From NCBI GenBank assembly GCA_030062745.1, contig CP099852.1, positions 19,153,949 to 19,217,948 on the forward strand: a stretch of 64,000 bases of DNA, read 5' to 3'. This stretch comes from Capitulum mitella (taxonomy: Eukaryota; Arthropoda; Thecostraca; Pollicipedomorpha; Pollicipedidae). Below the pieces are notes generated by a model that made no database searches, was not told the DNA's origin, and worked only from the letters and a program-made list of their open reading frames with translations. The translations under genes and the position numbers were made by a program. Below are positions 16,056 through 60,402 of the stretch, piece by piece; position 1 is the first letter of the stretch; every line of letters starts with the position of its first letter.

Positions 16056-19000
16056 ATGCGAGTGCTGCCCCTGCTTCTAGTGTTATGTGTGGCATTCATT
16101 GCCGTTGAAGGTAAGCATAGCATTTTAGCTTTCACCCGCAATCACATAAATTAAGATCTCTAGTCAATTTACCTCTGTGCGTGCTTCCGTAACATGGTTT
16201 TGGGGATTCATTTTAATAGTGTGTGATTTTTGCGGTGCGGAAATTTCCTAGCGCTCAGTGTGGAAATTTTTGCAATCTGTTTCAGGCAATGTCCGCGTAA
16301 ACTACTGCGGCTTCCAAAACTATGGCATCTGCGGTCCTGGTCAGGTGTGCCTGCCCTGCAGGCACAACTCCAACTTCTGCTGCGTCCGCATAGGCCCACC
16401 GCCTCCCCCAGGTGAGTCAAGCCACAGCTCCTGCTTCTGCTCCACCCGCGCAGCCCCACTGGGAACAAGCCGCGCAGATCTCCGGATCCTGTGCGGGTAC
16501 ACCGCCACTGTGGCGGGAGGCCCTAGACCAGCCGTCTCCTCGATTTTCGTCACCCCAGAGTGACAGCCGGCAGCCCACTGGTGAAGACGCTCCATCTGAA
16601 GGCAACAGAAATACAAATCTCCTAGCCTATTAAGATGAGATCGTCTTCCGACTTCTAGCTATCGACCCAGGTAAGCGATGTAGGTCATAAGGACGGCAAC
16701 TGAAAATGCGCACTTGAGTAAAAAGCGCGAAAATGCGACAAAACCTACGAAGCCGCTTCGTAAAGATGCGGTTAAACATGTCCTCCGAACATTTGTGACC
16801 AATCATGTGTAGGCTGAAGCATTTGCTCATCCAACCCCGGTTGGTCATGGTCTGCATGTAATTGGTCCCATCATTTGAAAGCTTTGGTGTACTTAAGTAC
16901 TTATGAAAGCCTTTGGGTGGTAGTTTAGTTGGTCTAGACTCATCTCAGGGGCACAGACGTATTTTACTGAAATGACTTTTATGAAATTACTTTCGCCCGT
17001 CATCGTCTAATCGTCTGGATTGTTTTGGCGTCAATAATGCTACTAGGCGCCAAACAGGATGCAAGCACCCTGCGAATAGCAGTCTTCACTTGTTTATCAT
17101 CTTGACTTTGACTTGGCTAGGGCTCCTCGGGTAGCCCTAACTAAAGGACCTTAGACTGAGCCACGTGCTCCCTGCACACCCCTCCCCTGACACAATTCGC
17201 CAGCCTTCAGCGCACTCGGCTCCTAACGTGTGTCGGCCGTGGTGCCCCGTGGCCGGAACAGAACTCAGGACTCGATACCTCTCATGAGGTGTCTTCAGCT
17301 CGTGACACGGTCGCTGGTTTTCAGGAATTCACTGCGGCTTCCGGAAGTACGGCGTCTGCGGCCCGGGACTGACCTGCAGTCGCTGCCCGCACAACTCCAA
17401 CTTCTGCTGCCTCCCCATCTGTGAGTCGCCGAATATTGGGGCTGCAACACGTCGGCAGACGAAACTTCGCCGTGGCCATAGTCCTTATCCCGATAAACTT
17501 AGTTGTTCCGAAGCATTGGTGGAAACTTTCCAAAATTTGTGGGAATGCTTATTCCATTTTGAGGCTCATTCTTGTGATGCAACTTCTAGGGTCCAATATA
17601 ATTTTTTGGGCATGTTGTGATATCCGTGTAGTTCTGACGACACATTAAAGGTTCATCCATATGCCTGAGTCAGTCATTCGCAGCCTTTTCTCCGCTGCGT
17701 AGTATTTCAGAATCATTGCTGGAGGTGTTGGTACTTGGGAAACATGCGCCCACCCATTTTTCACACATTTTTCAGTATTTAACCTACGTTTAAATATTTG
17801 AACCGACAGAGGCGTAGCAACCAACCTCAAGCTGTGGTACTGCGTGCACCATTAGGGAAAGAGGTTGGCAACGGGTATACTGAGTCACGCTTATCGATTA
17901 CAAACAAAGCCTTCCAGTTCACTCATACTCAGTGCTCACAATTAGCACATGCTGTCCAGTGGACTTGAATGAGTCTGGATATGACGCCTGCGACGATGCT
18001 CTGCGAACTTCTCAGTGATCTGGTGGTGGGCGGCCGTTTGGGTCTTGTTCTTGACAGATCATGCACCGTGTTCGTTCCAGTCCCATGCAAGTACTCCGGC
18101 CAGGCGTGCAGCAAAGCCCGAGTGTGCCGCACGATAGGAAAGGGTATTCTCCGCTGCCTGCCTCGTGTTTCGCGCAGTACGTACTGGCCACCTCTGGCTC
18201 CCTCTCCTCTTCATCTGAGCGTGCACCCACTCCAGTCACGCCGGCGCCGGTCATGTGATTGCAACATGTGTGGAGGACAACGCGTTGGCAGTGTAGCTAG
18301 ATCGGCGATTGCCAAACATCCAGCCACGCGGCGGGTTTCCAAAGGTTAGACTATGCGAGGGTCTTGGCACCTACTTAATCTGGAAGGAAATGTACTGGCG
18401 ATGTTCGGTAACATGCCCCCAGAATTCATCGGCTGTGCTACTGGCGTATTCTTTTCGGAGAAATCATGGATTTGCAACATGTCTTTGACAGATCTTCCCG
18501 TAGATGATATAGTTAATAGAAAAATGACTATGGTGATTATCAGCTCAATTCAGTCATATCGCAAGCAATTGCTTTGTCTTAAATTGCAGTTAGCGAAGGA
18601 GAGAAGAAGGTACAACACAGTTGAGTGAATAGGCTTAGTAAATACAGTTAATGCAGTAAATGCAGATGATTTTGTTATCTTCATGTATTCCATTGGTTGC
18701 CTGCACTAGAGGTTTGGCTATGTCGCAGAAATTTGCAAAACTTTGCATCGGGGCCATTTGACGTATATATGCCAGTAATTGCTCCAGCTGCGAGCATAAG
18801 GCCCGTCCTGCTACTCATGCCTGGCGAGAACCCAATTGTTTTTTTCTGCATGACATGAAGACATTAAAGTTGCAGAGAAACTGCGAATGCAGACAGAAGC
18901 TCTGTTAAAAGACTGATTGATGGAGGATGAAGAATGGTGGAAGTCATTTTTACTTTGCTAAAAATCGGATTCGGTAATAGAAAAATTCGGATAAAATCGC

Positions 19001-19427
19001 CGGGTCGGTTGGTTAATAACTCCTACTAAGGGTGGGAATGCACCATGCATGCACAATCACATGAAGCCCACATAAAACATTGGAAAGGCTGGCGTGAGCT
19101 CGTAGTTATAGTTACTAGTTATACAGTGCCTCTTGGTTCGAAAATCTCCAATATTTTTTGTGATAGGGCATCGCAACAAAATAGAAGATACGAAGCAGGA
19201 GGAAATCTAATGCAGATAACGCAGCGCACTCGTACGAACTATTTGCATTCAGTCATTCGTGTTGCACTTTCAAGTGCAACTATTGGAGGATGCTGCTGGA
19301 GGCTCGGAGCGAACATACGTTTGGCAGGCCCCAATGACTCTCGTTCCCTGTCTTTTCAGAATCATGCCAACGGTCATGCAGAGGTTCTTGCTACAAGTGC
19401 CACATCGGTTACTGCTGTCACCACTGA
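16056..19427 (+). CDS. Secreted multi-domain Cys-rich peptide (candidate antimicrobial), five exons
   Basis: Predicted exons: 16056-16110, 16286-16411, 17325-17420, 18081-18176, 19360-19427. All four introns are phase 1 with GT-AG borders. Exon 1 encodes the signal peptide (MRVLPLLLVLCVAFIAVE). Exons 2 and 3 each encode a six-cysteine module with spacing C-x7-C-x5-C-x2-C-x6-CC; both contain GPG between Cys2 and Cys3 and HNSNFCC at the end. Exon 2 finishes in a run of five prolines. Exon 4 has four cysteines (C-x6-C-x5-C-x8-C) and uses a GTACGT donor; it is the least certain. Exon 5 encodes a compact module C-x3-C-x3-C-x2-C-x4-CC followed directly by a stop. Total about 146 residues, secreted. 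The modules resemble Cys-rich arthropod antimicrobial peptides in general form (compare the C-x3-C...CC of crustins) but I do not recognise the family. The paralogue lies at 48301-50475 on the other strand. Confidence 0.62.
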
Positions 19428-19688
19428 ACCAAGGGGCACTGTGGACGCTAAGCTCACCGGCCTGTCGAGGAACTACTCACTCTGCGGGAGCGAAATATTC
19501 AAAAACAAAATGAGAGTGCAAAAACCGCGTTGAGCTCGTTCCTGTACTGCTGGTGTGACGTCCTCTGAGATCTGTATGCACCACGTTCGATTAACCACCA
19601 CGAATGCGGATGTCATTGTGTGGTTGTTTTGTTTGGAATCAAAGGCCTGTCGACCCGGTAAAGTAAGAGCTTCAGAAACCCAAGCGAT
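19428..19688. other. Downstream region of Cys-rich gene 1
   Basis: About 260 bp between the stop codon and the next transposon. I see no obvious AATAAA signal and no further Cys-rich exon. Confidence 0.4.
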
Positions 19689-22914: not shown

Positions 22915-25900
22915 CTAGTAGCGTGAAAAAACCGCAGAAAAACCGACATCCAATAAAAACCGGAACAACTGTCCCGTCTCTATAAAACGAGACTCGTCAC
23001 TCAGCAAATCCTGCAAAGTGCGAGGAGTCGTACTGTGGCCAAAGTGCCGCAAACGCTCTGAAGTCAAACCATTGCATGTGATCAGCACATGGTGCACAGT
23101 GAGGGGCTCACTGCAGCGGGGGCACATCCCTCTCTCTTCGCCCTTTAACAGATGGTGATGCGTTACGTATGTGTGGCCTAGGCGCAAACGGCAGAGAATA
23201 ACCTCCTCTCGCCGGTTTTCGCGTGAACTTGAGGCCCAAGTTCCTAGGCGGGGTTTAATACTTTTGAGCTTATTTGGACCGAGCGCATCCCACTCACGTT
23301 GCCACAAGTCATACATATATGACGAAAACACACGATAAAAGTCCTTGGCAGGCAATGACATTCGTCGCGTCACACACATGCGTGACGCACGCTTCGCGGC
23401 TGCATCGGCTCGTTCGTTGCCAGATATCCCCACGTGGCTGGGGATCCAACAGAACGTCACTCTCTTTCCATGTCGGTCTAACGCTGTCAATCGTCTTAAA
23501 ATATCCTGTATAAGGGGATGACGCGGATGGAAACACTTCAGCGCTAAAAGGCTACTCAGCGAGTCTGTAAAAAGTACGTAAAAACCATCGTCGCTTGCCT
23601 CAATGAAACACAGCGCCTTGTCGATAGCCACGAGTTCCGACGTATAAACCGATGCATGAGGTGGCAAAGTAAATGACCGAGTGTCAGGGCCACACACGAA
23701 AGCACAGCCCACACCAGCCTCCGTCCTCGATCCATCGGTGAAAGCAGTCATATGGCCATCGTAGGATGCCATGTGCTCCAGTGCTCTGCACCGTAACTCC
23801 TCCGGGGCCACGTCGCGCTTCCGGTTCTCAGCCAAAGACACGTCCACCACAGGGGACACCAGTTCCCAGGGAGGTATGTCTAGATCGTAAGAACGTGCCA
23901 CGGACCTCAGTCGCACACCGCTCTCAATTAACAGGTCATGGACTCTCACACAGAAAGGAGTGGCTTTCAGAGATCGTCCGGTGCGAAAAAGGGCTATTGT
24001 GCTGGAAGAAAACACCGCCTCATATGTCGGGTGGTCGGGGAACTGAGCTAACTTGCATGCATACCGCAGCCCGAGCACCTTCCGTCGCAAAGCCAGGGGT
24101 GGCTCATTAGCTTCCACCAAGATACTAGCGGTGGGAGACGTTCTGAAGGCACCCGTAGCAATACGCAAGGCAGAGTTGTGCACTGTGTCCAACGTACGCT
24201 TGCTGGAATCGCATGCAGAGTCATACACAAAACAAGCATAGTCCAACTTAGAGCGAATCAGGGATCTGTATAGACGGAGCAACGTCACTCTGTCCGCACC
24301 GTACGATGTACCTGCGACACACTTTAAAACGTTCAGTGATTTAAAACACTTCTCACGCAGCGATTTAAAATGGTCCCTGTACGTCAATCGTTTGTCAAAT
24401 TGCAGTCCAAGAAACCGCACTACTGGCTCCGACGGAACCAGTTTCCCGTACAGTTGCACAGATAAAGCGGGACAGCCACGGCGAGAGCGGCAAAAGTGGC
24501 ACGCAACTGTTTTTGACGTCGAGAAACGGAAGCCATTTGCCAGGCTCCACTTCTCCAAGCGGCCGACGGCCAGCTGCAACTGCCTCTCCATCGAGATAGC
24601 ACTGGACGCCTTACACCATATTGCCAGATCGTCGACGAACAGTGACCTTCCTACAGAGCGAGGCAGTCTGTCTACCACATCGTTAATCATAATGGCAAAG
24701 AGTGTCACACTTAACACACCACCCTGAGACACGCCGTTCACCTGCAGAAACCGGTCAGAAAAGTGCTTTCCTACACGAACACGGAAAAAACGGTCATCCA
24801 AGTAGTTCTGTAAAAAGACGCCCATACGACCACGAATACCTTGCCCAAAGGCCTTCAAGAGAATGCCGTGTCGCCACGTCGTGTCGTATGCACCCTCGAT
24901 GTCAAAAAACACACCTCCCACATGACGTCGTTCCCGAAAAGCAACACGCACTGCTGTGTCTAGGGCTAAAAGGTGGTCGACAGTACTACGGTTTTTCCGG
25001 AGACCGCACTGAGCATTGTCAAACACGTTATTCTTCTCTAAAAACCAGGTCAGGCGGAGGTTAACCATCTTCTCCAAAAGTTTACACAAGGAAGATGTCA
25101 GAGATATGGGACGATAATCAAGAGGGTTTAAACCACTCTTGCCGGGCTTGCACAGTGGGATGACGATGGCCTCTCGCCAGGCCAACGGGAACTCGCCACG
25201 GGTCCAAATCGCATTGAACATAGTCAACAGTGTCTCAACCGCGCAATGTGGAAGGTGTCGAAGCATATCGTTATGCACTTCGTCTGGGCCCTCCGACACA
25301 CTGCGCAGGGACGATATTGCTGACCTGAGTTCAGCCATTGTGAACACTTCGTTATACGAGTGCTGCTCAGAGGTATAAAAGTTCACTGGCGACCGCTCAC
25401 AGCGAGTTTTATGACGCACAAACTCAGGATCGGCGCCGCCACCCCGGCAACGCTCTGCGAGGGCGCGGCCGATCTCGTTGGCAACGTCAGCAGGGTGAAA
25501 CACGTCATGGCCGTGCACGCGCAGCACGGGCAGCGGCTTAGAGCAATGTCGGCCCCCTATCCTCTTGATGCGGTCCCAGACCTCCGAAGTGCGGGTGGAG
25601 CGGTTCAGGCCACCCACATACTCTCGCCATGACCGCCGTTTCGCCTCCAAGATAACACGGCGTGCCGAGGCCCTCGCTTGTCGAAAAGCGATCAAATTAT
25701 CAAGTGTACTGCACCGATCGAATGCCCTGTAAGCTCGCCTGCGTGTACGAATGGCGTCTCTACACGCTTTCGTCCACCATGGCACTGGTGGGCGGCGGGG
25801 AGCACCAGATGTTTTGGGGATGCTTTGTCCGGCTGAATGCACGATCATCTCGGTAAATTCGTCCACCGACATCGGCCGCTCCTCCGGCTGACGCCAACGC

Positions 25901-26649
25901 ACGGCCAATTCAACCTCTTCCTCAAATTGGCCCCAGTCAGCACACCGAAGCAACCACCGTGGTGGCCTTGAGCCGAGCACGGCACCGTCCTTATAGTGCA
26001 GCCATACTGGCAAGTGATCGCTTCCGCATGGGTCGTCATCCACCGACCACGTCAAGTACTGCATCATCTGTGGGCTACAAATGCTCAGGTCTAGAGCCGA
26101 TGTTTGTCCGGAAGGCAAAGTAAAATGTGTTTTGGCTCCAGTATTTAAAAGACATAGTGATTCGTCGTTCAACAAGCTTTCTAAAAGTCGACCACGTGTG
26201 TCGGTGTTGTCGCAACCCCAATTAGTATGGTGAGCATTAAAATCACCTAAAAGCAGGAAAGGTGCAGGCAGCTCTGCAACCAGACGCCGGAGCTCCAACG
26301 TGGGAAAAACACAACCAGGCGCCAAATACACTGAGCACAGTGTTACTTGACGGCGTCCCAAGTGCGACCTCACTGCCACAGCCTGCACATCAGCGCGCAC
26401 GTCGAGCCGCTGGGTGGGAACACCATGGTGAACGGCTAGTAGGACCCCACCGTGCGCAACGGTGTCGACTGGCTCGTCGCGACGAAATATGCTGTAACCT
26501 TTGAGACTAAAACAAGTGTTTGGTGCCAGTTTTGTCTCCTGGAGGCCAACAGCAAATGGGCAACGCCGTCTCAGCAGAGCCTGCAGATCACTGGCGCTCG
26601 ACCTAACACCTCTACAGTTCCACTGTAAAATGACCTGTATAAGGTCGGG
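22915..26649 (-). CDS. ORF2: endonuclease-reverse transcriptase-RNase H polyprotein
   Basis: Uninterrupted frame of about 1244 codons to the stop at 22915. The frame is open back to a TAA at 26650-26652 and has no ATG before the endonuclease starts (VILQWNCRGVRSS near 26630), so translation probably begins by coupling or reinitiation after ORF1. Domains in order: APE-type endonuclease (QETKL, LLGDFNAHHTNWG, SDHLPVW); reverse transcriptase (DYRPISLTSSLCKLLEKMV, FDIEGAYDTTW, QGGVLSVTLFAIMINDVV, catalytic FVDD about 590 residues after the codon at 26400); RNase H (TDGSR, ELVAIDKAL, TDSLSSL, WIPSHVGISGNERAD); then a C-terminal CxxC...H...C motif (CPRCSEPLTVHHVLITC). All catalytic signatures are present, so the enzyme may be functional. 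Confidence 0.92.
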   Translation of the reverse strand, partial: PDLIQVILQWNCRGVRSSASDLQALLRRRCPFAVGLQETKLAPNTCFSLKGYSIFRRDEPVDTVAHGGVLLAVHHGVPTQRLDVRADVQAVAVRSHLGRRQVTLCSVYLAPGCVFPTLELRRLVAELPAPFLLLGDFNAHHTNWGCDNTDTRGRLLESLLNDESLCLLNTGAKTHFTLPSGQTSALDLSICSPQMMQYLTWSVDDDPCGSDHLPVWLHYKDGAVLGSRPPRWLLRCADWGQFEEEVELAVRWRQPEERPMSVDEFTEMIVHSAGQSIPKTSGAPRRPPVPWWTKACRDAIRTRRRAYRAFDRCSTLDNLIAFRQARASARRVILEAKRRSWREYVGGLNRSTRTSEVWDRIKRIGGRHCSKPLPVLRVHGHDVFHPADVANEIGRALAERCRGGGADPEFVRHKTRCERSPVNFYTSEQHSYNEVFTMAELRSAISSLRSVSEGPDEVHNDMLRHLPHCAVETLLTMFNAIWTRGEFPLAWREAIVIPLCKPGKSGLNPLDYRPISLTSSLCKLLEKMVNLRLTWFLEKNNVFDNAQCGLRKNRSTVDHLLALDTAVRVAFRERRHVGGVFFDIEGAYDTTWRHGILLKAFGQGIRGRMGVFLQNYLDDRFFRVRVGKHFSDRFLQVNGVSQGGVLSVTLFAIMINDVVDRLPRSVGRSLFVDDLAIWCKASSAISMERQLQLAVGRLEKWSLANGFRFSTSKTVACHFCRSRRGCPALSVQLYGKLVPSEPVVRFLGLQFDKRLTYRDHFKSLREKCFKSLNVLKCVAGTSYGADRVTLLRLYRSLIRSKLDYACFVYDSACDSSKRTLDTVHNSALRIATGAFRTSPTASILVEANEPPLALRRKVLGLRYACKLAQFPDHPTYEAVFSSSTIALFRTGRSLKATPFCVRVHDLLIESGVRLRSVARSYDLDIPPWELVSPVVDVSLAENRKRDVAPEELRCRALEHMASYDGHMTAFTDGSRTEAGVGCAFVCGPDTRSFTLPPHASVYTSELVAIDKALCFIEASDDGFYVLFTDSLSSLLALKCFHPRHPLIQDILRRLTALDRHGKRVTFCWIPSHVGISGNERADAAAKRASRMCVTRRMSLPAKDFYRVFSSYMYDLWQREWDALGPNKLKSIKPRLGTWASSSRENRREEVILCRLRLGHTYVTHHHLLKGEERGMCPRCSEPLTVHHVLITCNGLTSERLRHFGHSTTPRTLQDLLSDESRFIETGQLFRFLLDVGFSAVFSRY

Positions 26650-26760
26650 TTAAAAGGGTCTTAAAACACAGCGTCCCGGGATATAAAAGAAGCATCAGCA
26701 CCTGCAGGAACACTAAAACAGTCACTGCAAGTGCAAGGTTAAAGTGTTCAAAAGAAGTGG

Positions 26761-28350: not shown

Positions 28351-29191
28351 AAGTGAGATTTGTAATTTCGGCACCAGGGCTCCCCACCCACCTCGGAGCC
28401 CAACTGGGGGACGCCCGGCCCTACAAAAAAAGTGACGCGGGACGCCAGGGCTACCCCGGTGCTATACGGGACAGGCGGCGCCTTCTGCCCGGCCAGGTGC
28501 AACCGGCGAGACCCCTCCCCGTCCTGACCGGGTTCCAGCGCTGCCCACCCCTTGACCCCGGCCGGCCGGGCCGAACGAACCCGAACAAAGCCGGGCTCGA
28601 CGGCCCGAGGCGACCAGCCACTTGGTCCGCATGGGGCCATACGGACCCGCCCGCCCCTCCCGGATATCAGGACCAAAGAGGCGTGTTGGCCCCCCGCCAC
28701 AACTAGCACCGTGCGGCGAGAGGCCTCAACCTCCAGGACTCCGTCAACCCCGGGGGACGGGCCGAGGGAGCGCGGCTACTCCGATAAAACCGAGAGCTGG
28801 CGGACTGGCAGGGTTGCTAGACCTGAGCAGTCAGGGGAAGCTGAGCTGCTTGCTACCAGAGGTGAGGTGAACAAAAGGCCCGGATATGGGACAACCAGGG
28901 TCGGCGTGGGCAGGGGATGCTAGGATCGATACGGGTCAGAGGAATTTCTTGGCTGGGACCCGGGGGGTCGCCATACCCCACACCAAGTGGTGTTCCTGCG
29001 GGAGAAGCTGGGGACCGAGGGGGCGCTGCTCCCCTACACTGACCGGAGCCAGTGCCCTTCGGTGAGGCACTCTTCGTCTGGCTCCTCCCCTTTGGCCGGA
29101 AGGGGAGCTCCACGAGCAACCCCGACCGCCCGCCGGATCACTGGAGCACACAATCCCCCCACCACGGAAAGGTGGTGCCCCATCGGGGGGT
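28351..29191 (-). promoter_or_regulatory. 5' leader of I-like retrotransposon
   Basis: GC-rich 840-bp region upstream of ORF1. Non-LTR elements of this group carry an internal promoter near their 5' end; I see no TATA box, as expected. Open frames here are composition-driven. Confidence 0.45.
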
Positions 29192-31062: not shown

Positions 31063-31704
31063 CTATTTGCCATAATAACCGCCACTCAGAAAAGCGTTTG
31101 AATTGTGTTTGGAGAACTGGCTTCCGCCAAATGGGTTTATGCTTTGGCCTGCCAGGCCATGTGCACTTCCGACGAAACGTCCTCCGTTGGCAACGGATCC
31201 CTGGAAAATGAAAAAAAAACACTGCCATTGAGAAAAAGTTCATTCCTCACATCCACCGATCTTTATTTGCTCGTCAAAGCGTGCATGCCGATGTACTCTT
31301 GCTGTGCATATTTCTCTCGGCCATAAAGTACATAAACTGGCACGTACAATTACATGGACAGATTGTTTACGGAAAACTGTGACTACTAAAGCTTCATGCC
31401 ATCACTAAAGCACGCCTGTCACATTGAAATTTTTAGGCAGAAAAATCGCCGTGTTCCAAGAAGAACAGGCTGAAATATTACCGCAAGTTCCTATTACTAC
31501 AAGTCGTGGTTTGCTCACCCCAGTCTGAGCTCTGTTCTGCTGGATCTGGGAGAAGCCGCCAAATGGTCCACGGTGCTGGCCTTGAATAGACCCACTGCTG
31601 GACCCTCCCTGAGCATAGCCGCCATAGCCACCGTAGCCATACTGTGGACGGGGATTGGCCAGGGCTGCCCCGGCCAGGAACAAAACAATAACTGCCACCT
31701 CCAT
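31063..31704 (-). CDS. Gly-rich secreted peptide A (candidate antimicrobial)
   Basis: Coding exons on the minus strand: 31704-31519 (62 codons, ends phase 0 at GTGAGC) and 31200-31063 (45 codons plus TAG, after a CAG acceptor). Product 107 residues. The signal peptide MEVAVIVLFLAGAALA is followed by a Gly/Tyr-rich stretch (NPRPQYGYGGYGGYAQGG), a GGFSQIQQN segment, then the 45-residue domain beginning GSVANGGRFVG and ending SGGYYGK. The C-terminal Gly-Lys is a potential amidation signal. The 5' end of this exon is a CAG acceptor at 31712-31714, seven nt before the ATG, joining a non-coding exon ending at 32200. Gly-rich secreted peptides are common arthropod antimicrobials; this family is not one I recognise. 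Peptide C (39312-39943) matches it at 40 of 45 residues in the last exon. Confidence 0.75.
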
Positions 31705-32199
31705 GTCGGACCTGAAACGGAAGAACAAGAGTACGTCGTTTTTCCTGCCGAAATGCCAGCGAGCTCTGTCGACAAAATCCCTCAACGAAGTGGTTGCTTG
31801 TAGTACTATGTTACAGAATACTGCGAGCATTATCTCAGCAACCAAAAGTGATAATGCTGAAAAAATTGATCAGATGCCTATCTTTGGCCACCGGACACCC
31901 AAACGTTCAAAAGAGATATATCAAAACACTTGATATATCTGCGGCACTTATGCTACACGATGGTTTACATGTTTTGGTGAACAAAGCTCTATCTTCGGGT
32001 AATTTTCAAGTTTAAAAAGGTGGGTACGCGTCGGAAGTACTCTTTCAGCACCCTTTCACAACAACTAGACAATGACAACGGGCGGACAACGGGCGGACAA
32101 CGAGCAAACAATGTGTTGTCCCGAAGTCGCCGGACAATTCTCATTTCTTTGCCTACTGGGCTGAGGCAAACACGATAGCACGAGATGTACAGCACTCAC

Positions 32200-32299
32200 T
32201 TTCTTGGGAATGACGCTGTTATTCTCACTGGTCGTCTGGTACTGACGGCCAATGGCTCCAAAGCAGCTTTTATACCAGCCGGAGACCCAAGGGCTTTCC
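32200..32299 (-). promoter_or_regulatory. Promoter and non-coding exon 1 of gene A
   Basis: On the minus strand: kappaB-like GGGCTTTCC (read on the plus strand at 32291-32299), TATAAAAG at 32274-32267, initiator TCAGT with A at 32243 (31 nt after the first T of the TATA box), and a 44-nt leader exon ending AAGAAA at 32200 before donor GTGAGT. Intron 1 runs 32199-31712. Spacing and sequence are conserved in gene C. Confidence 0.7.
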
Positions 32300-35501: not shown

Positions 35502-37280
35502 TGAACCGCTACGTAGGAAAGATTGTGTTGTGGTTGGAGAACTGGTTTCCGCTAAACTGGCTTATGCTTTGGCTTGACAGACCATGTGCATTGCCGACGA
35601 ACCGTCCACGTTGGCCACGGATCCCTGGAAAATGAAACAAAGCTTTGCCATTGAGAAATAGCCCCCTCCTCATTTTCGCCGGTGATCGTTCGTGAGTAGT
35701 ACCGACGAACGTCACCCGCACATATTTCATCCCACCATGAAAAACATAAATTGACACGCTTAACCCGCGCACGACCGTCGGTCGTAGACGATCACGCCCA
35801 AGGGGGGTGGCCGCCCCCCCCTCTAACTCATGAACGGTTGGTCGCACGGTAAAAAATAAGCACACCGTTGGAAAGCTTCTGACGAGTAGAGATCGAAACT
35901 GGTCTCCGTCCTTTATATGTTTTATCATAGCCGATTGCATGAGACCGAGCAACGGCCTGAATCTCAAGGTCTGTGACTAATAACGCATAGGTAAAGGCAC
36001 CAGCGCACAAGTAAAGGTCCGCAAATGCCGATACACATCAGTTTCTCAGATTTGTACAATATATACGCCGAAACGTTGAGTTAAAGACACGGCAATCTTT
36101 GCGCCGGCTATCGGCGGCCGCCGCAGCCGTATGCAGCAGGAAATCAACGGGAACTAATTTTAGCGTTTCTTCATTTTCGCGGAAAAAGTCTATCCCTACC
36201 AATTGGATTGATCTTCGTGGTTCTTGTGGTGGTTTCTTATGCTTAGATTTTGAAAAAATTCGTTAGTTTCCCATTCACACAACCGGCAGAGATTTATTCG
36301 CGAGAGCCTGTTTATTTTCAAAATATGCAATTTTTTCAGACTTTTCGAGATTCTTGGTATTAATGTGCAAGCCAGTTCTGCCATTTTCAACCTATTCTGC
36401 TTAATTCATCGCTGATTTTGACGGTGGTATATTTTGGCTCACAACGGTTATTCGTGACCTGACCTCAGGTCAATGACTGGAAGTCATTGATACATTGTCC
36501 TAATGACGGTAACTAGATGTGTGCTTCGTTCCACACTAAAAATGTTATGAAATATTCCGTCAATTTCCGAAAAAAACGGCATGTCTTAAAAATGGGCTTG
36601 ACCTTAGGTTAATAACCCGGGAATTCCGAAAAATCTGAGACAGAAGATTTGTTACACCTATCACGATCATGAATCCTTGAAAGTATTATTGTGATATTTT
36701 GTTTTGCGAAAAAGCTACAGAGCGCTAAACATTTTTGAACATAGGTCCATTGGACCTGACCTAGGTCAGGCACCCAACCTGACCTGAGTTCAAAACTTTG
36801 ACGCAAGGTGTAAAAATGATGAAGCAAAAGGCGCACAAAGTTTTGTCGCTCTGTGTTTGTTTGTTCTCCAGCAATCCCAGAAAAACCTCAGGAAGGCGGT
36901 CAACTGCCCCCCCCCCCCAGTCGGGGGCGGGTTAATGACATGGATAAACCGTCCAAGAAAATATGCCTTTGAAATATTTGAGGCAGCTATTAAGTCGTAC
37001 TTACCATGCGGGACATTTTCGGGCAGGCTAACTGCCAAGTTGCAACAAGCGCAAGTCGCAATATTAACACCGATTCTGGCCGTAGTTTGCTTACTCCAGT
37101 TCCAGTTCTGTCCTGCTAGATCTGGGAGAGGCCGCCAAATGGTCCACCCTGCTGACCCTGAATAGACCCACTGCCGGACCCTCCCTGAGCAAAGTCACCA
37201 TAACCACCGAGGCCGAACTGTGGACGGGGATTGGCCAGGGCTGCCCCGGCCAGGAACAAAGCAGTAGCTGCCACCTTCAT
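35502..37280 (-). pseudogene. Gly-rich peptide B, pseudogene
   Basis: Exon 2 (37280-37095) keeps the ATG, signal peptide (MKVAATALFLAGAALA) and Gly-rich region but has a TAG at 37118-37116, where the other copies have Gln in the SQIQQN motif. Exon 3 (from 35624) has a one-base deletion just after the GSVAN codons that shifts the frame, and its 3' end has lost the GGYYGK-coding block. No TATA box or leader exon like those of A, C and E was found upstream. It is interrupted by a TTAA element at 35760-36935, in the intron. Confidence 0.8.
35760..36935. mobile_element. TTAA-flanked MITE, family 2, full copy
   Basis: 1.18 kb with TTAA on both sides and CCCGC/GCGGG ends, with subterminal G and C runs. 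The unoccupied site is preserved in unit 2 (GACACGCTTAATGACATGG near 45307-45325), so the TTAA duplication is demonstrated directly. Non-coding; contains TGACCT/AGGTCA motifs. It inserted into intron 2 of pseudogene B after the segmental duplication or was lost cleanly from unit 2. Confidence 0.85.
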
Positions 37281-39311: not shown

Positions 39312-39943
39312 CTATTTGCCGTAATAACCGCCACTCAGAAAAGCGTTAGCGTTGTGTTTGGAGAACTGGTTTCCGCCAAATGGGCTTATGCTTTGGGCTG
39401 CCAGGCCCTGTGCACTTCCGACGAAACGTCCTCCGTTGGCCACGGATCCCTGGAAAATGAAAAAAAAAACATTGGCATCGAGAAAACGTTCCATCCTCAC
39501 ATCCACCGATCTTTATCTGCTCGTCAAAGCGTGCATCCTGATAAACGCCTGCTGCGCATATTTCTCTCGGCCATAAATCACATAAATTGGCACTTACAGT
39601 TAAACGGACAAATTGTTTACGGAAAACTGCTACTATTGAATGTTTCACGCCATCACCAAAGCACGCCTATCACATCGGATCTTTTTAGGCAGAGTAATTA
39701 CCAAGTTCCGCGAAGGACAAGTCGAAATGTTACCGCAAGTTCTTGTCGTGGTTTGCTTACCCCAGTGTGAGCTGAGTTCTGCTGAAGCTGGGAGAAGCCG
39801 CCAAATCCACCCGACTGACCCTGAATAGACCCACTGCCGGACCCTCCCTGAGCATAGCCACCATAACCACCGTAGCCGTACTGTGGACGGGGATTGGCCA
39901 GGGCTGCCCCGGCCAGGAACAAAACAATAACTGCCACTTTCAT
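39312..39943 (-). CDS. Gly-rich secreted peptide C (candidate antimicrobial)
   Basis: Coding exons on the minus strand: 39943-39761 (61 codons, phase 0, donor GTAAGC) and 39449-39312 (45 codons plus TAG). Product 106 residues: signal peptide MKVAVIVLFLAGAALA, Gly/Tyr-rich NPRPQYGYGGYGGYAQGG, SGGFGGFSQLQQN, then the 45-residue domain GSVANGGRFVGSAQGLAAQS...HNANAFLSGGYYGK. It ends in Gly-Lys like peptide A. The leader exon ends at 40428 and intron 1 is 40427-39951. Closest paralogue is A, with which it shares promoter spacing and leader. The intact frame against the decayed neighbour D suggests selection. Confidence 0.78.
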
Positions 39944-40427
39944 GTCGGACCTGAAACGGAACAACAAGAGTACGTCGTTTTTCTTGCCGAAATGCCTGCG
40001 AGCTCTGCCGACAAAATTTCTCAACGAAGTGGCTGCTTGTAGCACTCTGTGATACCATGTCACAGAATACTAGGAGCTTCATTTCAGCAACCAAACGTGA
40101 TAATGCTGGAAACTTTGGTCAGATTCCTATCTTTGTTTACCGGAGACGCAGATGTTAAAAACAGAACAACAGTTGGTATATCTGCGGCATTTATACCATG
40201 TGACAGCTAACGTGTTTTGGTGAATAATTAAAGTTTAAAAAATGGGCATATGTCTGGAATACTAAGTTAATTATCATACTATTATTGCGGAAAAATAAAC
40301 ACCCTTCCACCTCAACTACACAATAACAACGAGTAGACAATGTGCTGTTCCAAAGTCGTCGGACAGTCCCAGTTCTTTGCTCAGTGGGTGGAGGTAAGCA
40401 CGATGTCATGCGATGCACAACACTCAC

Positions 40428-40525
40428 TTTCTTGCGAATGACGCTGCTCTCACTGGTCGTCTGGCACTGACGGTCAATAGCTTCAACGCAGCTTTTATAC
40501 CAGCTGGAGACCGCAAGGGCTTTCC
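40428..40525 (-). promoter_or_regulatory. Promoter and non-coding exon 1 of gene C
   Basis: kappaB-like GGGCTTTCC (plus-strand reading at 40517-40525), TATAAAAG at 40499-40492, TCAGT initiator with A at 40468, and a 41-nt leader exon ending at 40428 before GTGAGT. TATA-to-initiator spacing is identical to gene A. Confidence 0.7.
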
Positions 40526-42660: not shown

Positions 42661-42686
42661 CGGAGTAGTGTCTTGTTGTCTTGAGC

Positions 42687-42720
42687 GACGCGTTGTCCGG
42701 CATCGCCAGGACAACGCGTC
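42687..42720. repeat. Short perfect hairpin
   Basis: GACGCGTTGTCC and its exact complement GGACAACGCGTC around a 10-nt middle that can pair further (GGC/GCC). It sits at the 5' edge of the CR1-like remnant. Confidence 0.85.
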
Positions 42721-45030: not shown

Positions 45031-45658
45031 TTATCTGCCGTAATAACCACTACCTAGAAAAGGATTTGCCTTGTGGTTGGAGAACTGGCTTCCGGCAAAC
45101 GGGCTTATGCTTTGGCTTATCCGGCCATGCCGTGCGACTTCCGAAGAACCATCTTCCGTTGGCCGCGAATTCCTAGAGTATAAAAAAGAGCATTGTCATT
45201 GAGAATAGTTCCCTCATTATATTCGCCAGTGTTCATTCGTTCGCAAGTAGTACCGATAAACGTCCCCTGCACATATTTCAACCCGCCATGGAGCACATAA
45301 ATTGACACGCTTAATGACATGGACAAACTGTTCAAGGAAATATGCCTTTTAAATATTTGAGGCAGCTATTAAAGCACACTTATTACACCGGAAGTTTACA
45401 GGCAGGGTAACTGCCAAATTGCAACAAGCGCAAGCCGACATATCGACACAAAGTCTAGCCATAATTTGCTCATTCCTCTTTCAGCTCCGTTCTGTTGAAG
45501 TCGGGAGAAGCCGCCGAATGGGCTGCCGTCCTGACCCTGAACAAACCCATTGCTGACCCTCCCTGAGCAAAGCCACCATAACCATCGTAGCCATACTGTG
45601 GACGGGGCTTGGCCAGGGCTGCCCCGGCCAGGAACAAAACAATAACTGCCACCTCCGT
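45031..45658 (-). pseudogene. Gly-rich peptide D, pseudogene
   Basis: Homologous to A and C but with at least four lesions: the start codon is ACG (at 45658); one base is deleted in the GGSGSG-coding stretch; the exon 2 donor GT has become AT (near 45476); and exon 3 (45172-45031) is 142 nt instead of 138, a net four-base insertion that shifts its frame. The end still spells GYYGR before a stop in one frame. No upstream TATA/leader block was found. Confidence 0.8.
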
Positions 45659-48300: not shown

Positions 48301-50475
48301 CTAGCCCTTGCAGTAGCGGCCCTTGCCACAGGGGCGGCAGCCCTTTTTGCCGCCACAGCGGACACAGCAGTAGCCGATATTGCAGCGACGGCAGTAGCCG
48401 TAACATGTCCTCTGACAGGCGCCTGAAAACAGTTTCTTGTTTGACATGTCTCCATAAGCTATGTGCTGCGCATTAGCACATGATTCCTGGACGCATACGG
48501 ATGACCTCAAGGATGATATTTTATGGTCATTTTGGGCGTGTTTAAAGTTTAGGTATTAAATCGTCTTCCTCGCTATAAATAGCTTGTTTTTCCCATTGTA
48601 GCGTGCACGAGATATTGTGACACTTTGTGACGTATGAGGACCAAAATTGTCCTAATAACGTGTGAGTCATGCGAGACAGAGAGATGGGACAAACACCACC
48701 GTGTTCATGGATCATTTTGCTTTTAAAGCTGTATGAAACAGGCATATCTGCCAAAGCTGGCCTTCCAGGTCATTTACCATTGCTGTTCATACTGGTTTGT
48801 TCGGCCTTGACTTCATTTAAATATTAAAAATCTATGGCAAACGTGCCTCTCAGGCAGGATGTTACCGACGAAAAAAATTGTTTTTGTTTAATGAAGTGGC
48901 TGGTATGTCATAATGCTCGTTTTTCATATTTGCCATCTCCCTGGTGACTGAGGAGAAATACGGACAATATTAACTAACGTTATAAAACTAAGGAATGCGA
49001 TTCAAGCGAATGAAGGTAGACTCATCCCTCCTAAAACTGAAACGTATCCTTCGTTTTAATTGCAATAGTTACAGCACCTCCGGATATCAAAGCTGAGAGT
49101 TCTCGAGAACCCTCAAGAGGGAAGGGAAAATGTCAGGAGACTATGGCGGTCATCTAGGTTATGAACGTTTGGCACGTGAATTTTACTTAAATTGTGTTTC
49201 AACTTTAGAGCTACGATGAAAAATTCGGTGATATGTTTCGAAAATATCTGCACCGCATTTAGACCTGGTCTCGCCGAGGACCTTTGCAGATGCGCGGATC
49301 GAGGGTTTACCTAAACCCATTGCCACAGCCACTGCCAAGCGTGAGATACGTACGTTTCGTGATGTAGCGGAGACAGCGGAGCCGGCCAATGCTGTCATAG
49401 CGGCACACGAGACGGTGACCACAGCGCTGGCCCACGCGATAACACTTTTTCGCTGAAAAGCACATGACATGCTCCACGTAAACCAGCCACTACTTGATTA
49501 CCCAGCCATGTGATCGGCGGGGCGAAGAACTGTAGCACGAAACAATAGGCGTCTGTTTGGGTGTGGCATATGTGTGAGCATCCACAGAACTCGATTATCC
49601 CGGACTGCACAGGTCAAAACGAAAAATGTAAGTCCAGGCTGGTGCATTTCCACTCAGTGTGAGAATGATCGCGTATGACTTTTTGTGTCAAATTGTAGGA
49701 ATGCGTCGGAATTGTCGCAGAGCTATCTGATTCACCCTCGTGAGACAAGAGCAGCGAGGAAAGCCAGAGTCGTCGTTATTTCGAGCCTAGAATTCCATAC
49801 GACGGCGAGTCCAGACTGTGACGTCTCATCTCCGCTGTGATCATGGTGATACAATAACGTGACGCTGTCAGTCGCGGCCAACGCTGAGTCCCGGAAAGGT
49901 TCACAACAGGTCGCTGCGCTGCCTCATGTCGACTCACGTGGTGGAGGACGGCAGCAGTAGCCTCGGTGACACGGGCGGCACAGGTGACCTTTGTTGCACC
50001 ATCCCTTGCCTCCCTTACCGCAGTACTTTTTGCGGCCGCCGCCTGGAACAAGGACAGTAGCACCGGCTGCGTCACGAAAAAAATCCCGAGTGATCCAAAC
50101 CTCTGCGGTTTCGATGGTACTGGACATAGGACAGTCTTGGACACTCGGTCTACAAACACACGGCGGAAATATCTCTTCCTTTCTGACGGCGCCATGCTGG
50201 TGAAGCTCGTGCTGTGTAAGTGCTTACGGCTCCCTCAGTTGCCAAAGACGTTTCTGTTACCGGCGAAAATTGCCAGCGTTGCTGCGTACTGTACAACGGT
50301 AGGTGAACTTCGACTGTACAAAATGCCTCTGCATTGGTCGCTGTCCGGGAATGGCGAGCGATTGTCGCACAGAAGCTGGACGGAGTCCATATACAGATTG
50401 CGACGGACCAACAGAATTACCTTCAACGGCGATTACCACCAGACACAGCAGTAGCAGCAGAGGAAGCAGCCTCAT
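48301..50475 (-). CDS. Secreted Cys-rich basic peptide (candidate antimicrobial), three exons
   Basis: Exons on the minus strand: 50475-50421, 50042-49938, 48422-48301. Both introns are phase 1 with GT-AG borders. Exon 1 is 55 nt, the same length as in the gene at 16056, and encodes the signal peptide MRLLPLLLLLCLVVIAVE. Exon 2 encodes GGRKKYCGKGGKGWCNKGHL and a CRPCHRGYCC end, spacing C-x7-C-x5-C-x2-C-x4-CC, followed by RPPP. Exon 3 encodes a C-x3-C-x3-C-x2-C-x4-CC module (ACQRTCYGYC, RRCNIGYCC) plus a four-Cys extension ending GKGRYCKG and TAG. Product about 93 residues, strongly basic (Lys/Arg). Exon 3 is clearly paralogous to exon 5 of the other gene. Membrane-active or chitin-binding antimicrobial function is inferred from charge, cysteines and secretion. 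Confidence 0.68.
48480..49900. other. Intron 2 of Cys-rich gene 2
   Basis: About 1.5 kb (49937-48423) with no additional Cys-rich exon recognised. Unlike the gene at 16056, no second or third intermediate module was found here. Confidence 0.4.
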
Positions 50476-50522: not shown

Positions 50523-50530
50523 CTTATATA
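50523..50530 (-). promoter_or_regulatory. TATA box of Cys-rich gene 2
   Basis: TATATAAG on the minus strand, 48 nt upstream of the ATG at 50475. The same octamer and nearly the same distance as in Cys-rich gene 1. Confidence 0.65.
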
Positions 50531-50539
50531 CGTCTGTCC

Positions 50540-51590
50540 GTCATGGGGCGAGGGGCAACCACGTCGATCACGTGCAATGGAACAAAGCAAACATGCCGCA
50601 TGACACGACCAGATGACATTTTTCTAATGTCACAGATATTCGAAAGGTGAATCGATCTTTTGGCCATGGCATGAGGCCCCGCTCACGGGTCTCCTGCTTG
50701 TCACAAGGAGAATACTGCGCATTTGGTTAATACGTCGCGGGCTAGGTAGGTACATGGATGGAGGTGTTTCAGATGTCCATCTGGGGGTCTCAAATCTGCC
50801 TGCTTATTTTGAAGGCCCCAACGCTGCTCAGAAAACCATTGTTTTGTTTAACCGAGAGAAGCAACGTAATTACGCCGAGCTGGTGACCAATTTTTGCGTG
50901 ATGGGACTGCATGCTTTCAACAAAAGAAAAAAACGCAATCTGGACTTATGTGGGCTGACATGAAATTAATTTCGCACCACTACCGACAAACAGCGTTTTA
51001 ATGTCGTCGAAAAGTAGCATATGCCTAATGCGAAATTTCATGTCGAATTCTGGTACTGCATTATTACATGTTTTAGACCAAAAGTATCATCAGATGAACG
51101 GAGATCAGCACTGCAGCAATGTCGTTTTGTCTTGGCGGAAGTCTACATTAGCTACATGTAAAAGATCAAACGCAATGTCGTGACTCAAGTCGGCCTGTGA
51201 CCTAAACTGAACTTCGGAAGAATTTTCCGAAAAACATGGTTTGTCACAGCAAAATAATCTGACCTGATCTGTTTCTCCATCAGTAATGACACTGTGTTGT
51301 TCCTGGCATCAGGGGCGTGGTTTCTAACTGTGGGTGCATAAATTTTTGCGGGTGCCCAAACAAGTTGTCAGTTCATTTAATCCAGTGCACGTTCATGGGC
51401 TGAATATCAAGTTTCAAAACTATTACGGCTGCCCGAGCATTACTGTGGATGGCCAGACACCCATGAAGGGGTGAAAACCAAACCCCTGCCCAAGATAACG
51501 ATTGCCTGACTAGGCAAAGGGAAGATAAGGTACCGAGATATAGTGATGGTTCACATTGAGATGGTAAAAAAAGCCTGGTGTCGATGCATT
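50540..51590. other. Unassigned upstream of Cys-rich gene 2
   Basis: No gene recognised; open frames are 60-70 codons without known motifs. Confidence 0.4.
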
Positions 51591-51591
51591 C

Positions 51592-51975
51592 AGCTGTCTC
51601 TGACCAGTGAGACTGGTGTTGGTGGTGTCAGCTGTCTCCGGTCAGTAGGACTGGTGTCGGTGGTGTCAGCTGTCTCCGGTCAGTGGGACTGGTGTCGGTG
51701 GTGTCAGCTGTCTCCGGTCAGTGGGACTGGTGTCGGTGGTGTCAGTTCTCGGGGTATCTTGTCGTGTGGGACTGGTGTCGGTGGTGTCAGCTGTCTCCGG
51801 TCAGTGGGACTGGTGTCAGTGGTGTCAGCTGTCTCCGGTCAGTGGGACTGGTGTCGGTGGTGTCAGCTGTCTCCGGTCTGAGGGACTGGTGTCGGTGGTG
51901 TCAACTGTCTCCGGTCAGTGGGACTGGTGTCGGTGGTGTCAGCTGTCTCCGGTCAGCGGGCCTGGTGTCGCTGAG
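51592..51975. repeat. 38-bp minisatellite, about ten units
   Basis: Tandem units beginning CTGTCTCCGGTCAGTGGGAC and ending GGTGTCGGTGGTGTCAG, 38 bp long. One unit (about 51744-51788) has a longer, divergent 5' half. The last unit is divergent. Because 38 is not a multiple of three, the long frames here are shadows. Confidence 0.9.
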
Positions 51976-52344
51976 GACAGCTGCGCCGTCCCCCAGTACC
52001 GGCGACAGGTCTCGTCACAGTGCTCTGAGGTCGACGATTCTGAGAGGTCAGCTATTTCCCGACTGACGGCTGCCCCCGCAGTGGCGCGCCCTCCCGTCTC
52101 ATAGGGCAAACCACATCCTCGTGCTGCCACCGAACCATTCGCGCCACTGGCCGTGGATGGGTCAGCTGTCACGGGACTGAAATGGTCTCTTTGTTTGATT
52201 TGTTTACACATATTTATTTATGGTGCATATCTCTGGGTTCCACGACACTTGACCTTTATCACCACATCGTCATGCAAATCGCAAAGAATAAACAAACTTT
52301 TGACAGAGTGCCCCTAACAGGCATTGTCTTTCGCGGGCTCGATC

Positions 52345-55944: not shown

Positions 55945-57448
55945 TTACCCGTAGACGGGGTGGCTGGAGAGGTGGGACGTCGCGTGGTGGCTGGAGATCT
56001 GGCTGGCGCCGCCGAAGCCCAGCTGTTGGGCGGCCAAGCCGGACGCGGTGCCGGAGAACTGGCCGCCGTGGGAGACCGAGCCCTGCGAACAGCGGCAGGG
56101 GCGTGAGCTGGGCCCGGGTGAAGAGGCGGCCCCAGCGCGGGCTAAACGCTCCTTGGTCCGTCTCCAGGTGGGCGACATTGGACAAGAAACTGATGTCGCT
56201 GTTTAAGTGATAAATATTGACGAACATGTACGTAGTAATCGCATAATGCTGGAGATTTCAACCACGCAATGGCCGTGCTCGACGTTAAATTTATTTATTT
56301 TATAACGTCATATCATTTATGGACCCGAAATTACAGTTGAAGTCTCAGACTGATCTGGAATTTACGTTCCATTACCCTCAAACCTTGAAATACAGAAAGA
56401 CCTTAACATTAATACAGTGCTATGGCATTTCGGCACGTTCTGTTTTCCGCCGTACGTGAAGACTAGAAATTTTAGGCAAATGTAACAAGCTACATTTGTA
56501 ACTTCACCATGGCGATAAAGGTTAATGATACGCAGTATCATATAAAAGAAAACACATGCATTACACATACGCCCGTGGGACGGAGCCTACTGGCCCCTAA
56601 AAAGATCAGCGGATGGGCCCATACCCGTGAAGGAACAATGCTGCGGTTTAATCAGCACTCCTGCAAGTGTACCGAATATTTTAAGTTGCGTGGTTTTTAA
56701 GCTGTTCAGGTTATTCATGTCTGCGCGACACAGGAGCAGGAACAGCCGCATTTTCTGTGCATTTTCGCTGTCTTTAGTTATGCATGTGCTACGCGCGTCC
56801 ATAATTTGTATCGTTCCATAAAAAGATGTGCCTCTGTACAGAACCTTATTTTCCGAAATGGGCGTACTGCTTTTTAGCACAGCTGAGTGTTTTGCGACAT
56901 TTTCTATATCAATGTCTAGCCCACCGTTTGCTTTTTCGATGCGCAGACGTGAAATCTTTCACATATCTGAGAAAGGATTTTGTCGGTTTACGAACGGTTC
57001 GTGCCTTAGGCGTCAGTGTCGGAATGTTCACGTTCATAGCAGAATGTATCACGCTGCTGGTGACCTAAAAATTCGTTTTAATCCGAATAATCGCGTGCGT
57101 AGTGGCAGCAGCTACCGCTGGCTGGCTGATTTCAGTCATGGCCATGGTGCCAAACAGGCCAGCCTGGAATTCTTCTCATTTACGACGCAACAATGTTTGG
57201 TTTTGTCAACGACGGCGGCTGTTGCACGGAAAAAACCAAGTCCAAGCTAACCATTGTGCGGTTTATCTACTTACCCCAGAATGGGCCTGGTTTGTCTGGA
57301 TCTGCGAGAATCCGCCGAATCCACCACTCTGTCCCTGGGTAGAGGAGCTTCCAGATGACCCCTGGGCATAGCCTCCTGGACGGAAGAAGAAGGATGGTTT
57401 GGCGACTGCCACCGCCGCCAGGCACAGGAGAACGACCGCCACCTTCAT
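55945..57448 (-). CDS. Gly-rich secreted peptide E (candidate antimicrobial)
   Basis: Coding exons on the minus strand: 57448-57275 (58 codons, phase 0, donor GTAAGT) and 56082-55945 (45 codons plus TAA). Product 103 residues: signal peptide MKVAVVLLCLAAVAVA, then KPSFFFRPGGYAQGSSGSS, SGGFGGFSQIQTN, and the 45-residue domain GSVSHGGQFSGTASGLAAQQ...SSHPVYG. It ends directly in Gly, itself a possible amide donor, instead of Gly-Lys. The intron is long (about 1.2 kb) compared with about 310 bp in A and C. The last exon has higher GC than its surroundings. Confidence 0.75.
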
Positions 57449-58004
57449 TCTGGATCTGAAAGACGGAAGACACAGGCATATTCCTTTGAACCCATTTTTG
57501 CTGTTGCCGCTGAAAACGCAATTTCGAATTGGTTGCATGATGAACTGCCTGTGTTTGTAGATCTGTGCATGTAACTATTTAGATCTGCACTGCGTGGAGC
57601 TGTCTCTGGGTTGTAATCCTCAAATGAAATTAGGTTTATTACTTTTGCGAAATTATTTCTTATTCTCTCTTTCTGAACGATGCAAAATCGAAACCACCAC
57701 TCATGCATTCGTTCAAATACAGGTATATCTAAAATGTCACGGAAAAGTCCTTTAATTTTTCTCCAGAGCAAAGAAATCATCTCGAACTACATTCACTTGG
57801 GACGGAATAAAGTTTAACAAATGAAACATCTTCTCTGCCCTTCAGACCAATATCTACTCCTCAAGCTGCCCGTTATTCTCTCCGTTTATTTTTGTATGAA
57901 GACTGAAGTTTTAGTAGTTCCCATTCTAGCAGATCAGCAGTCAGCAAACACAGTGAGCCCAGGCCCTTGGAAACGGAAATGTGTCGTCCTGGCAGCAACC
58001 TCAC

Positions 58005-58790: not shown

Positions 58791-58799
58791 CTTCTACAT

Positions 58800-59410: not shown

Positions 59411-59414
59411 GTCG

Positions 59415-59420
59415 TTTATT
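59415..59420 (-). terminator. Possible polyadenylation signal of gene F
   Basis: AATAAA on the minus strand, about 280 nt downstream of the stop codon of peptide F. Confidence 0.35.
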
Positions 59421-59700
59421 GAACTTCAAGAAAGTAAAAATCAAAATCGCCGCCGAGGCCGACACGCTCTTCCCATTTCAGAGGATTAAACAGCTCTTGA
59501 CTGAACAGTGTGACACATCATTTAGCTGTGTCTGCCACTGTTCAGGACAGCGCTGGACTGGTGATGAGAGATCGCGTTTCAACACGACCTACATCACAGA
59601 GACAATTTCAATATCGTCATCAGGCAACTGCTTCAAGCAGATGTAATATTGGTCTTCGCTGTCAGTGGATTTGACGTGCCGCTAAACTCCGAATGTGAGT

Positions 59701-60402
59701 CTATTTGCCATAACGACCGCTGTCCAGATTAGCGACTGCATTGTGGCTGGAGATCTGGCTGCCTCCGAAGGGACCGATGCTCTGGCCGGCTGTTCCTGAG
59801 GCGTGTCCAGAGAACCGTCCTCCGCCCGATACACGGCCCTGAGGAACAGTGTGCGTTGTCAGACCAGACACGTTCGGGCAGGAGACATGCGGTATGTCGG
59901 AGTGCTCATACGTTGACGTCTCCGGCTTGTTCGTGTTGAATGCAGTGGTTTGTAAATGAAGCAGCTAGTGTGCCATTCTGGAATATTTCACTGGCTTCAA
60001 CCTCCTCTTTGTAATGAATCGGAAGTCTAATGCGGGATTTAAATTGTACAGTCGCGCATCTGACAGCTCGTGATACTCGAGTGGATTCGGTGCAGATATC
60101 AGCAATGCACTGCAATTCAGTTGCTGAATTTGGACATGACCTCCAGGTGGGGATGGCAAGGGCAACAGTTATCTGAAAAAGCTTTCAGCAGTCTGGTCTG
60201 GCTGGCTGCACAGATGTTGCTTTCTTACCCCGGTGCGAGCCGTGTTCTGCTGGATCTGGGAGAAACCACCGAACCCGGCCTGTTGGCCCTGTGTGGAGAA
60301 GCTCTCAGAAGAGCCCTGGGCGGAACCTCCACGGCGATAGGGACGGAATGGTGTGGCGACTACCACCGCTGCTAGGCACAGGAGAACGGCCACCACCTTC
60401 AT
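59701..60402 (-). CDS. Gly-rich secreted peptide F (candidate antimicrobial)
   Basis: Coding exons on the minus strand: 60402-60229 (58 codons, phase 0, donor GTAAGA) and 59838-59701 (45 codons plus TAG). Product 103 residues: signal peptide MKVVAVLLCLAAVVVA, basic start TPFRPYRRGGSAQGSS, QAGFGGFSQIQQN, then GRVSGGGRFSGHASGTAGQS...NAVANLDSGRYGK. It ends in Gly-Lys. A CAG acceptor seven nt before the ATG matches the other copies, so a non-coding first exon is expected, but I could not place it; a TTAA element at about 60555-61777 probably lies in that intron. The two exons show internal similarity (QAGFGGFSQIQQNTA against SIGPFGGSQISSHNAVA). Confidence 0.75.

Follow-up and report, generated by a model that had tools for sequence, protein, structure and literature searches.

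An interleaved cluster of glycine-rich and cysteine-rich secreted-peptide genes in Capitulum mitella, with antimicrobial defence as a possible function

The window analysed here is a 64,000-nucleotide stretch of Capitulum mitella DNA (contig CP099852.1, hereafter C14, positions 19153949-19217948), and its genes were compared with a genome of 477 Mb in 16 contigs, in which copy counts are lower bounds. As read from the sequence, genes of two unrelated families cluster in the window; they encode small, putatively secreted cationic peptides, glycine-rich (Gly) in one family and cysteine-rich (Cys) in the other, and have been duplicated together at least in part. The initial annotation had described four intact and two dead Gly genes and two Cys genes, all with signal peptides and with few other host genes around them. 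Splice sites and frames bear out the Gly genes, which belong to a larger family with at least 16 intact members on C14, and the full structures of both Cys genes, with five and four exons, were recovered. The first 16-19 residues of each Gly and Cys protein of the window form a hydrophobic leader; these leaders were read by eye, and the term signal peptide is accordingly putative. Among 19 longer frames (of 324 listed) scanned with Pfam, two retroelement frames only gave matches, in line with the described scarcity of other host genes.

The four intact Gly genes lie on the minus strand and share one layout, in which exon 2 encodes the leader together with the Gly-rich part and is separated by an intron from the last exon, which encodes a conserved, non-repetitive C-terminal part. 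Gene B (31063..31711; coding exons 31519-31704 and 31063-31200, intron 31201-31518) encodes 107 amino acids and gene C (39312..39950; coding exons 39761-39943 and 39312-39449) 106 amino acids, while gene E (55945..57455; coding exons 57275-57448 and 55945-56082) and gene D (59701..60409; coding exons 60229-60402 and 59701-59838) encode 103 each, gene E with the C-terminus VYG. All four have AG acceptors, GT donors and zero internal stops. The two dead copies are also on the minus strand: the first (35524..37280) has an in-frame TAG in exon 2, which runs from 37280 downward, and an exon 3 relic at 35524-35607 assigned by position; the second (45037..45655) has lost its ATG and its GT donor, bears a frameshift in exon 2 (45655-45474) and keeps an exon 3 relic at 45037-45129.

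The Gly array runs on far outside the window. The Gly gene C exon found 19 genome matches besides itself (best E 2.2e-31), and a profile search of the stretch of C14 read closely for Gly copies (18.99-19.247 Mb) gave 18 exon-2 copies, a count that excludes three weak profile matches (E 0.68-1.2). Fourteen of these appear intact by reading; the other four are the two dead copies of the window, one at 19083304 (ATG lost) and one at 19230728 (without ATG, exon 3 not found). With two further genes at 18.17 and 18.296 Mb, also intact by reading, the intact Gly genes number at least 16 across 1.1 Mb of C14. Over the 28 pairs formed by the 8 genes of subfamily I, mean identity reaches 94% in coding exons and falls to 80% in introns, 80% in 3' flanks and 70% in 5' flanks; chance resemblance is excluded because of the 19 genome matches and of this excess of exon identity over the 70-80% of introns and flanks. 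In the same subfamily, mean synonymous divergence (dS) is 0.14, mean nonsynonymous divergence (dN) 0.044 and the pooled ratio of nonsynonymous to synonymous proportions (pN/pS) 0.34, with only 0.08 in the leader. Pooled pN/pS is 0.51 within subfamily II (4 genes, 6 pairs) and 0.39 between subfamilies I and II (32 pairs), the genes u0a and u0b being left out of the selection and identity runs. At the level of sequence comparison, these values show that the coding exons of the Gly genes are under selection.

The predicted mature Gly peptides (14 counted) contain 22-33% Gly, all 14 have an isoelectric point (pI) of 9.3-12.0, and acidic residues number 0-2, with 13 of the 14 devoid of Asp and Glu; the mature mass is 8.6-9.2 kDa for the four window genes. 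In every one of the 16 Gly genes read, the stop codon is preceded by G, GK or GR, the C-termini seen being YYGK, YYGR, RYGK, GYGK, GHGK, VYG and YFGK. In gene E, the final basic residue is gone and the flanking residues are changed, and the terminal G is kept. Amidation is usually signalled by a terminal Gly, whether or not a basic residue follows it, and the C-terminus of the Gly genes is a possible amidation signal of this kind. Six weak matches to gene E (E 7.9e-5 to 0.003) were observed on another contig (C13, 19.63-19.67 Mb); one of these loci was read and has a Gly/Ser-rich, putatively secreted frame with the same two-exon layout, ending in RYG, its kinship resting on weak matches. Four matches on contig C7 are not counted as relatives, the single one read being an acidic single-exon frame.

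The two Cys genes are built from module exons. Cys gene A (16056-19427, plus strand) has five exons and encodes 146 amino acids: the leader in exon 1 (16056..16110), a six-Cys module I in exon 2 (16286..16411), a second six-Cys module I in exon 3 (17325..17420), module II with four Cys in exon 4 (18081..18176) and module III with the stop TGA in exon 5 (19360..19427). Cys gene B (50475-48301, minus strand) has four exons and encodes 126 amino acids: the leader in exon 1 (50421..50475), a six-Cys module I in exon 2 (49938..50042), module II with four Cys in exon 3 (49354..49452) and a long module III with ten Cys, ending in CKG and stop, in exon 4 (48301..48422). Upstream of exon 1, the element TATATAAG starts at 15999 in gene A and at 50530 in gene B. 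Three other intact genes on C14, B' (19.146 Mb), C22 (22.07 Mb) and D (1.97 Mb), bring the family to five, beside a degenerate gene A' (19.12 Mb) and a single isolated leader exon at 19.126 Mb. A 38-bp minisatellite occupies window positions 51575-51983 upstream of Cys gene B, and similar translated repeats also occur upstream of the C22 gene (L034 2521-3102); this repeat may have been duplicated with the gene.

Because every intron of the Cys genes is in phase 1, the module exons are symmetric. Module I has the spacing C-x7-C-x5-C-x2-C-x4..7-CC. Module II has four Cys in A, B, B' and C22 and six in gene D (C-x6-C-x5-C-x2-C-x4-CC), and since gene D module II is still six-Cys, the sequences suggest that modules I and II are one module type. 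The mature proteins of all five genes have 18-22 Cys, always in even number, 18-31 Lys and Arg, 0-1 Asp and Glu, and a pI of 9.3-10.0. A terminal CKG is found in B, B' and C22, and A and D are without a terminal Gly. The dN/dS ratio is 0.39 for B versus D (dS 1.06), 0.53 for B versus C22 and 0.72 for B versus B' (dS 0.03, few changes). Furthermore, a GxC triplet stands at the second Cys of all 6 module I exons and is absent from gene D module II. It resembles the gamma-core motif described in PMC12842719, a likeness that is only consistent with an antimicrobial action, the motif being permissive and, in these exons, inherited.

The two families are interleaved, with remnants of one inside duplicated units of the other. 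The duplicated Gly units u3, u4 and u5 each carry, 2.3-2.6 kb beyond Gly exon 2 and on the opposite strand in convergent orientation, an orphan Cys-A-type last exon that keeps its splice acceptor, and the duplicated blocks of these three units cover both the Gly gene and the Cys-A last exon. The same convergent order is seen for u6 with A' and for Gly gene B with Cys gene A, the second pair being now split by a long interspersed nuclear element (LINE). This arrangement would be explained by an older unit, made up of a Gly gene and a Cys-A gene in convergent order, that was duplicated as a whole; the remnants compared were those of the Cys-A type. The LINE-type retrotransposon itself (22915-28461, minus strand) has a 1244-residue frame with endonuclease, reverse transcriptase and RNase H (Pfam), and upstream of it a 566-residue frame with zinc-knuckle-like CxxC motifs.

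Promoter elements of the two families were also read from the sequence. For Gly gene B (32200..32274, minus strand), TATAAAAG at 32274 is followed by an initiator TCAGT at 32245 and a presumed non-coding first exon reaching a GTGAGT donor; for Gly gene C (40428..40499, minus strand), TATAAAAG lies at 40499 and the initiator TCAGT at 40470, again with a presumed non-coding first exon. A TATA element with the arthropod initiator TCAGT 29-30 bases downstream of it, 0.56-1.07 kb upstream of the ATG, occurs in 8 of the 12 Gly genes checked, all from subfamily I. In the intact Cys genes, TATATAA stands 55-57 bases before the ATG (5/5). The box CACGTG is found 7 times in 6 Cys promoters (one of them a relic), with none in gene A, against a background of 1.0 +/- 1.0; in the B, B', C22 and D promoters, even in the distant D, it lies shortly before the TATA box, at about 75-100 bases from the ATG. 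This enrichment is a lead only, because the Cys promoters are related to each other. Scans for AP-1, STAT, C/EBP and GATA motifs gave no enrichment in the promoters.

Database searches agree with the description of both families as unrecognised. Pfam gave nothing at the curated cut-off for 5 proteins, including no cuticle model such as Chitin_bind_4, NCBIfam gave zero matches for 3 proteins, and a PDB sequence search with Cys-B, Gly-C and two module profiles gave nothing significant; a match to cuticle or silk proteins, named in the initial annotation as evidence against its view, was thus looked for in Pfam and by PDB sequence, with nothing at cut-off. Below threshold, Pfam reported GRP for gene D (E 0.0041, 18.2 bits, cut-off 30), GEO12453p1-like for gene E (E 0.0097, 17.4 bits, cut-off 32.2) and Bindin for gene C (E 7.9), scores that in our judgement reflect composition and leader. 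The Cys proteins A and B had zero Pfam matches up to E 10, the protein A query being one Pro short. Scans of viral contigs with Gly-C and Cys-B returned 12 and 17 pattern matches, zero of them confirmed, and no description of these genes was found in the part of the open literature searched. Judged by these searches, both families appear to be new within already known kinds of peptide.

Several known kinds were considered for each family. In beta-defensins, which have six Cys, C3 and C4 stand about 9-13 residues apart, a long gap that comes ahead of the final CC; the module I spacing differs from this pattern and Pfam has no match, and an identity as beta-defensin or big defensin was rejected. 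Crustins, which crustaceans secrete, are peptides that contain Cys-rich regions and, in the case of type II, also Gly-rich ones (PMC8877177), and they include the barnacle members AaCrus1 (Amphibalanus) and PpCrus-SWD1 (Pollicipes); this identity was also rejected, neither family having a WAP domain match and the Gly and Cys parts sitting in separate genes. PpRcys1 of Pollicipes pollicipes, a short secreted Cys-rich peptide that is antibacterial as a recombinant protein according to the accessible text of PMC12195476, has 12 Cys and a pI of 8.5, unlike the present Cys family, and kinship was rejected, its peptide matches up to E 0.1 falling at other C14 loci and never at these genes. Five such matches, with E 5.2e-9 to 0.012, lie at 10.46-10.53 and 16.78-16.83 Mb of the chromosome that carries both families. 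For the Gly family, a close likeness is with the acanthoscurrins, ctenidins and serrulin of spiders and a scorpion, which are also small, cationic, secreted and Gly-rich; the mass is similar too, ctenidins and acanthoscurrins, glycine-rich antimicrobial peptides (AMPs) of spiders, having 8.8-10.2 kDa. For acanthoscurrins, ctenidins and serrulin, the consulted portion of PMC6784228 reports amidated C-termini. All 14 Gly peptides share the trait of this type, being putatively secreted (leader by eye), above 20% Gly and cationic. Unlike these peptides, the Gly family is without long GGG runs and has a conserved non-repetitive C-terminal exon; the likeness is one of traits. Acanthoscurrin is reportedly constitutive in haemocytes.

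Taken together, a defence function, as antimicrobial effectors, is the best single explanation of the cluster, with a probability that we place at about 0.5 from the sequence evidence. It leans slightly towards likely for the Cys family and is more tentative, a little under even odds, for the Gly family, for which a structural or adhesive role is nearly as likely. This explanation is plausible because the peptides are cationic with almost no acidic residues, the Cys counts are even, a possible amidation signal is kept, and the Gly peptides, with 22-33% Gly and 8.6-9.2 kDa, are like the spider glycine-rich AMPs. The effectors would reach the haemolymph, the body surfaces or a secretion. Members of the Cys family would fold as strings of small disulphide-locked modules, whose Lys/Arg-rich surfaces may bind microbial membranes and disrupt microbial surfaces, and the Gly family would consist of flexible peptides with an amidated C-terminus, working in the way supposed for the spider glycine-rich AMPs, the mechanism of which is not settled. 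The many gene copies could provide high constitutive output instead of strong induction.

Several results weigh against a defence function. The Gly peptides have just 2-8 Lys and Arg over about 88 residues. Among 14 promoters, 8 from Gly genes and 6 from Cys genes (one of the latter a relic), GGGRNNYYCC (kB) sites number 0, with 1 looser match, against a background of 0.5 per set that gives the comparison low power, and induction by NF-kB is not supported. The pair of TATA and TCAGT was not found within 5 kb for four subfamily II genes, nor within 1.3 kb for u0a and u0b. AlphaFold models from two module alignments are weak, with a predicted local distance difference test (pLDDT) of 70 for the alignment headed by gene D module II and of 56 for the one headed by gene B module III; the former shows a two-stranded hairpin at residues 14-27, and Foldseek with it gave one match (E 9.4). 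In the young Gly trio D, d1 and d2, dN/dS is 0.9-2.0 on few changes, which relaxation fits as well as diversification. Finally, glycine-rich and cysteine-rich groups of secreted proteins (GrCP, CrCP) are reported from the cement of the acorn barnacle Amphibalanus amphitrite in the part of PMC8371367 seen. The initial proposal of probable immune effectors is plausible and unproven: the cationic composition, the even Cys counts and the possible amidation signal fit it, and the lack of kB enrichment (at low power) and the low charge on the Gly peptides speak against it.

The cement groups lead to the most serious competitor, a possibility distinctly below even odds, in which the Gly family, perhaps both, would be secreted for structure or adhesion, as part of cement, cuticle, a silk-like material or shell matrix, with Gly/Tyr/Ser chains coating and Cys/Lys chains cross-linking. 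Barnacle cement proteins are like both families in being secreted and Gly-rich or Cys-rich; a structural chain could well have GGYGGY-type segments and low charge, high copy number suits bulk secretion, and the possible distant Gly/Ser-rich relatives cluster on C13 (six weak matches, one read). However, the authors of PMC8371367 found no cysteine-enriched cement cluster in stalked Pollicipes, and zero Pfam cuticle models matched. The cement protein cp20k (Megabalanus, PDB 6lek), the one cement protein compared by sequence, is without a clear relative, its one genome match (E 0.046) lying on C1 with a stop inside and none at the locus, and kinship was rejected. Moreover, the mature masses of the four window peptides are small, the window repeat scan reported no tandem repeats inside the Gly and Cys genes, and a kept amidation signal is, in our judgement, not expected of a bulk structural protein.

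A role as lineage-specific reproductive, settlement-cue or signalling peptides, with amidation and copy number serving signalling or sperm/egg functions, is unlikely. Signalling peptides, too, typically carry a signal for C-terminal amidation, and the dN/dS ratios of 0.9-2.0 in d1, d2 and D would fit such a role, but the Gly sequences show no repeated dibasic cleavage sites, a combination of 18-22 Cys and 18-31 basic residues seems unusual for signalling peptides, and 16 similar Gly copies suggest bulk output. Very improbable is the view that segmental duplication driven by repeats produced most of the Gly array as a by-product, with few functional copies, for although the region is repeat-rich, with long duplicated blocks 69-98% identical and 4 of 18 copies dead, exon identity stays at 94% where that of introns and flanks drops to 70-80%, and 14 of the 18 exon-2 copies at 18.99-19.247 Mb keep reading frame and C-terminus.

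Returning to defence, a fuller account, which we consider rather doubtful, is that both AMP families are new and arose side by side as a convergent pair copied as a unit, the Cys family being a kit of symmetric phase-1 module exons (three or four modules) with cassette exons skippable in frame and the Gly family its amidated bulk partner, and that the pair could work in synergy to give a sessile filter feeder a constitutive chemical shield. Should the peptides prove microbicidal, they would represent two new AMP families from a marine animal that lives attached, available as complete gene models and as 16 natural variants of the Gly type and five of the Cys type, and the locus would show the gain and loss of Cys modules by exon duplication. 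If the Gly family is adhesive instead, the locus would still tie Gly-rich and Cys-rich secretions genetically.

Other features of the window were recorded as well. Its GC content varies from 0.40 to 0.59 (2-kb steps). A piece of another retroelement endonuclease lies at 42669-43103 on the plus strand (Pfam E 0.00016, 22 bits, the cut-off of 24.5 not being reached), and positions 2677-6128 and 10807-15445 form an inverted repeat pair of about 3.4 kb with 92-94% identity.

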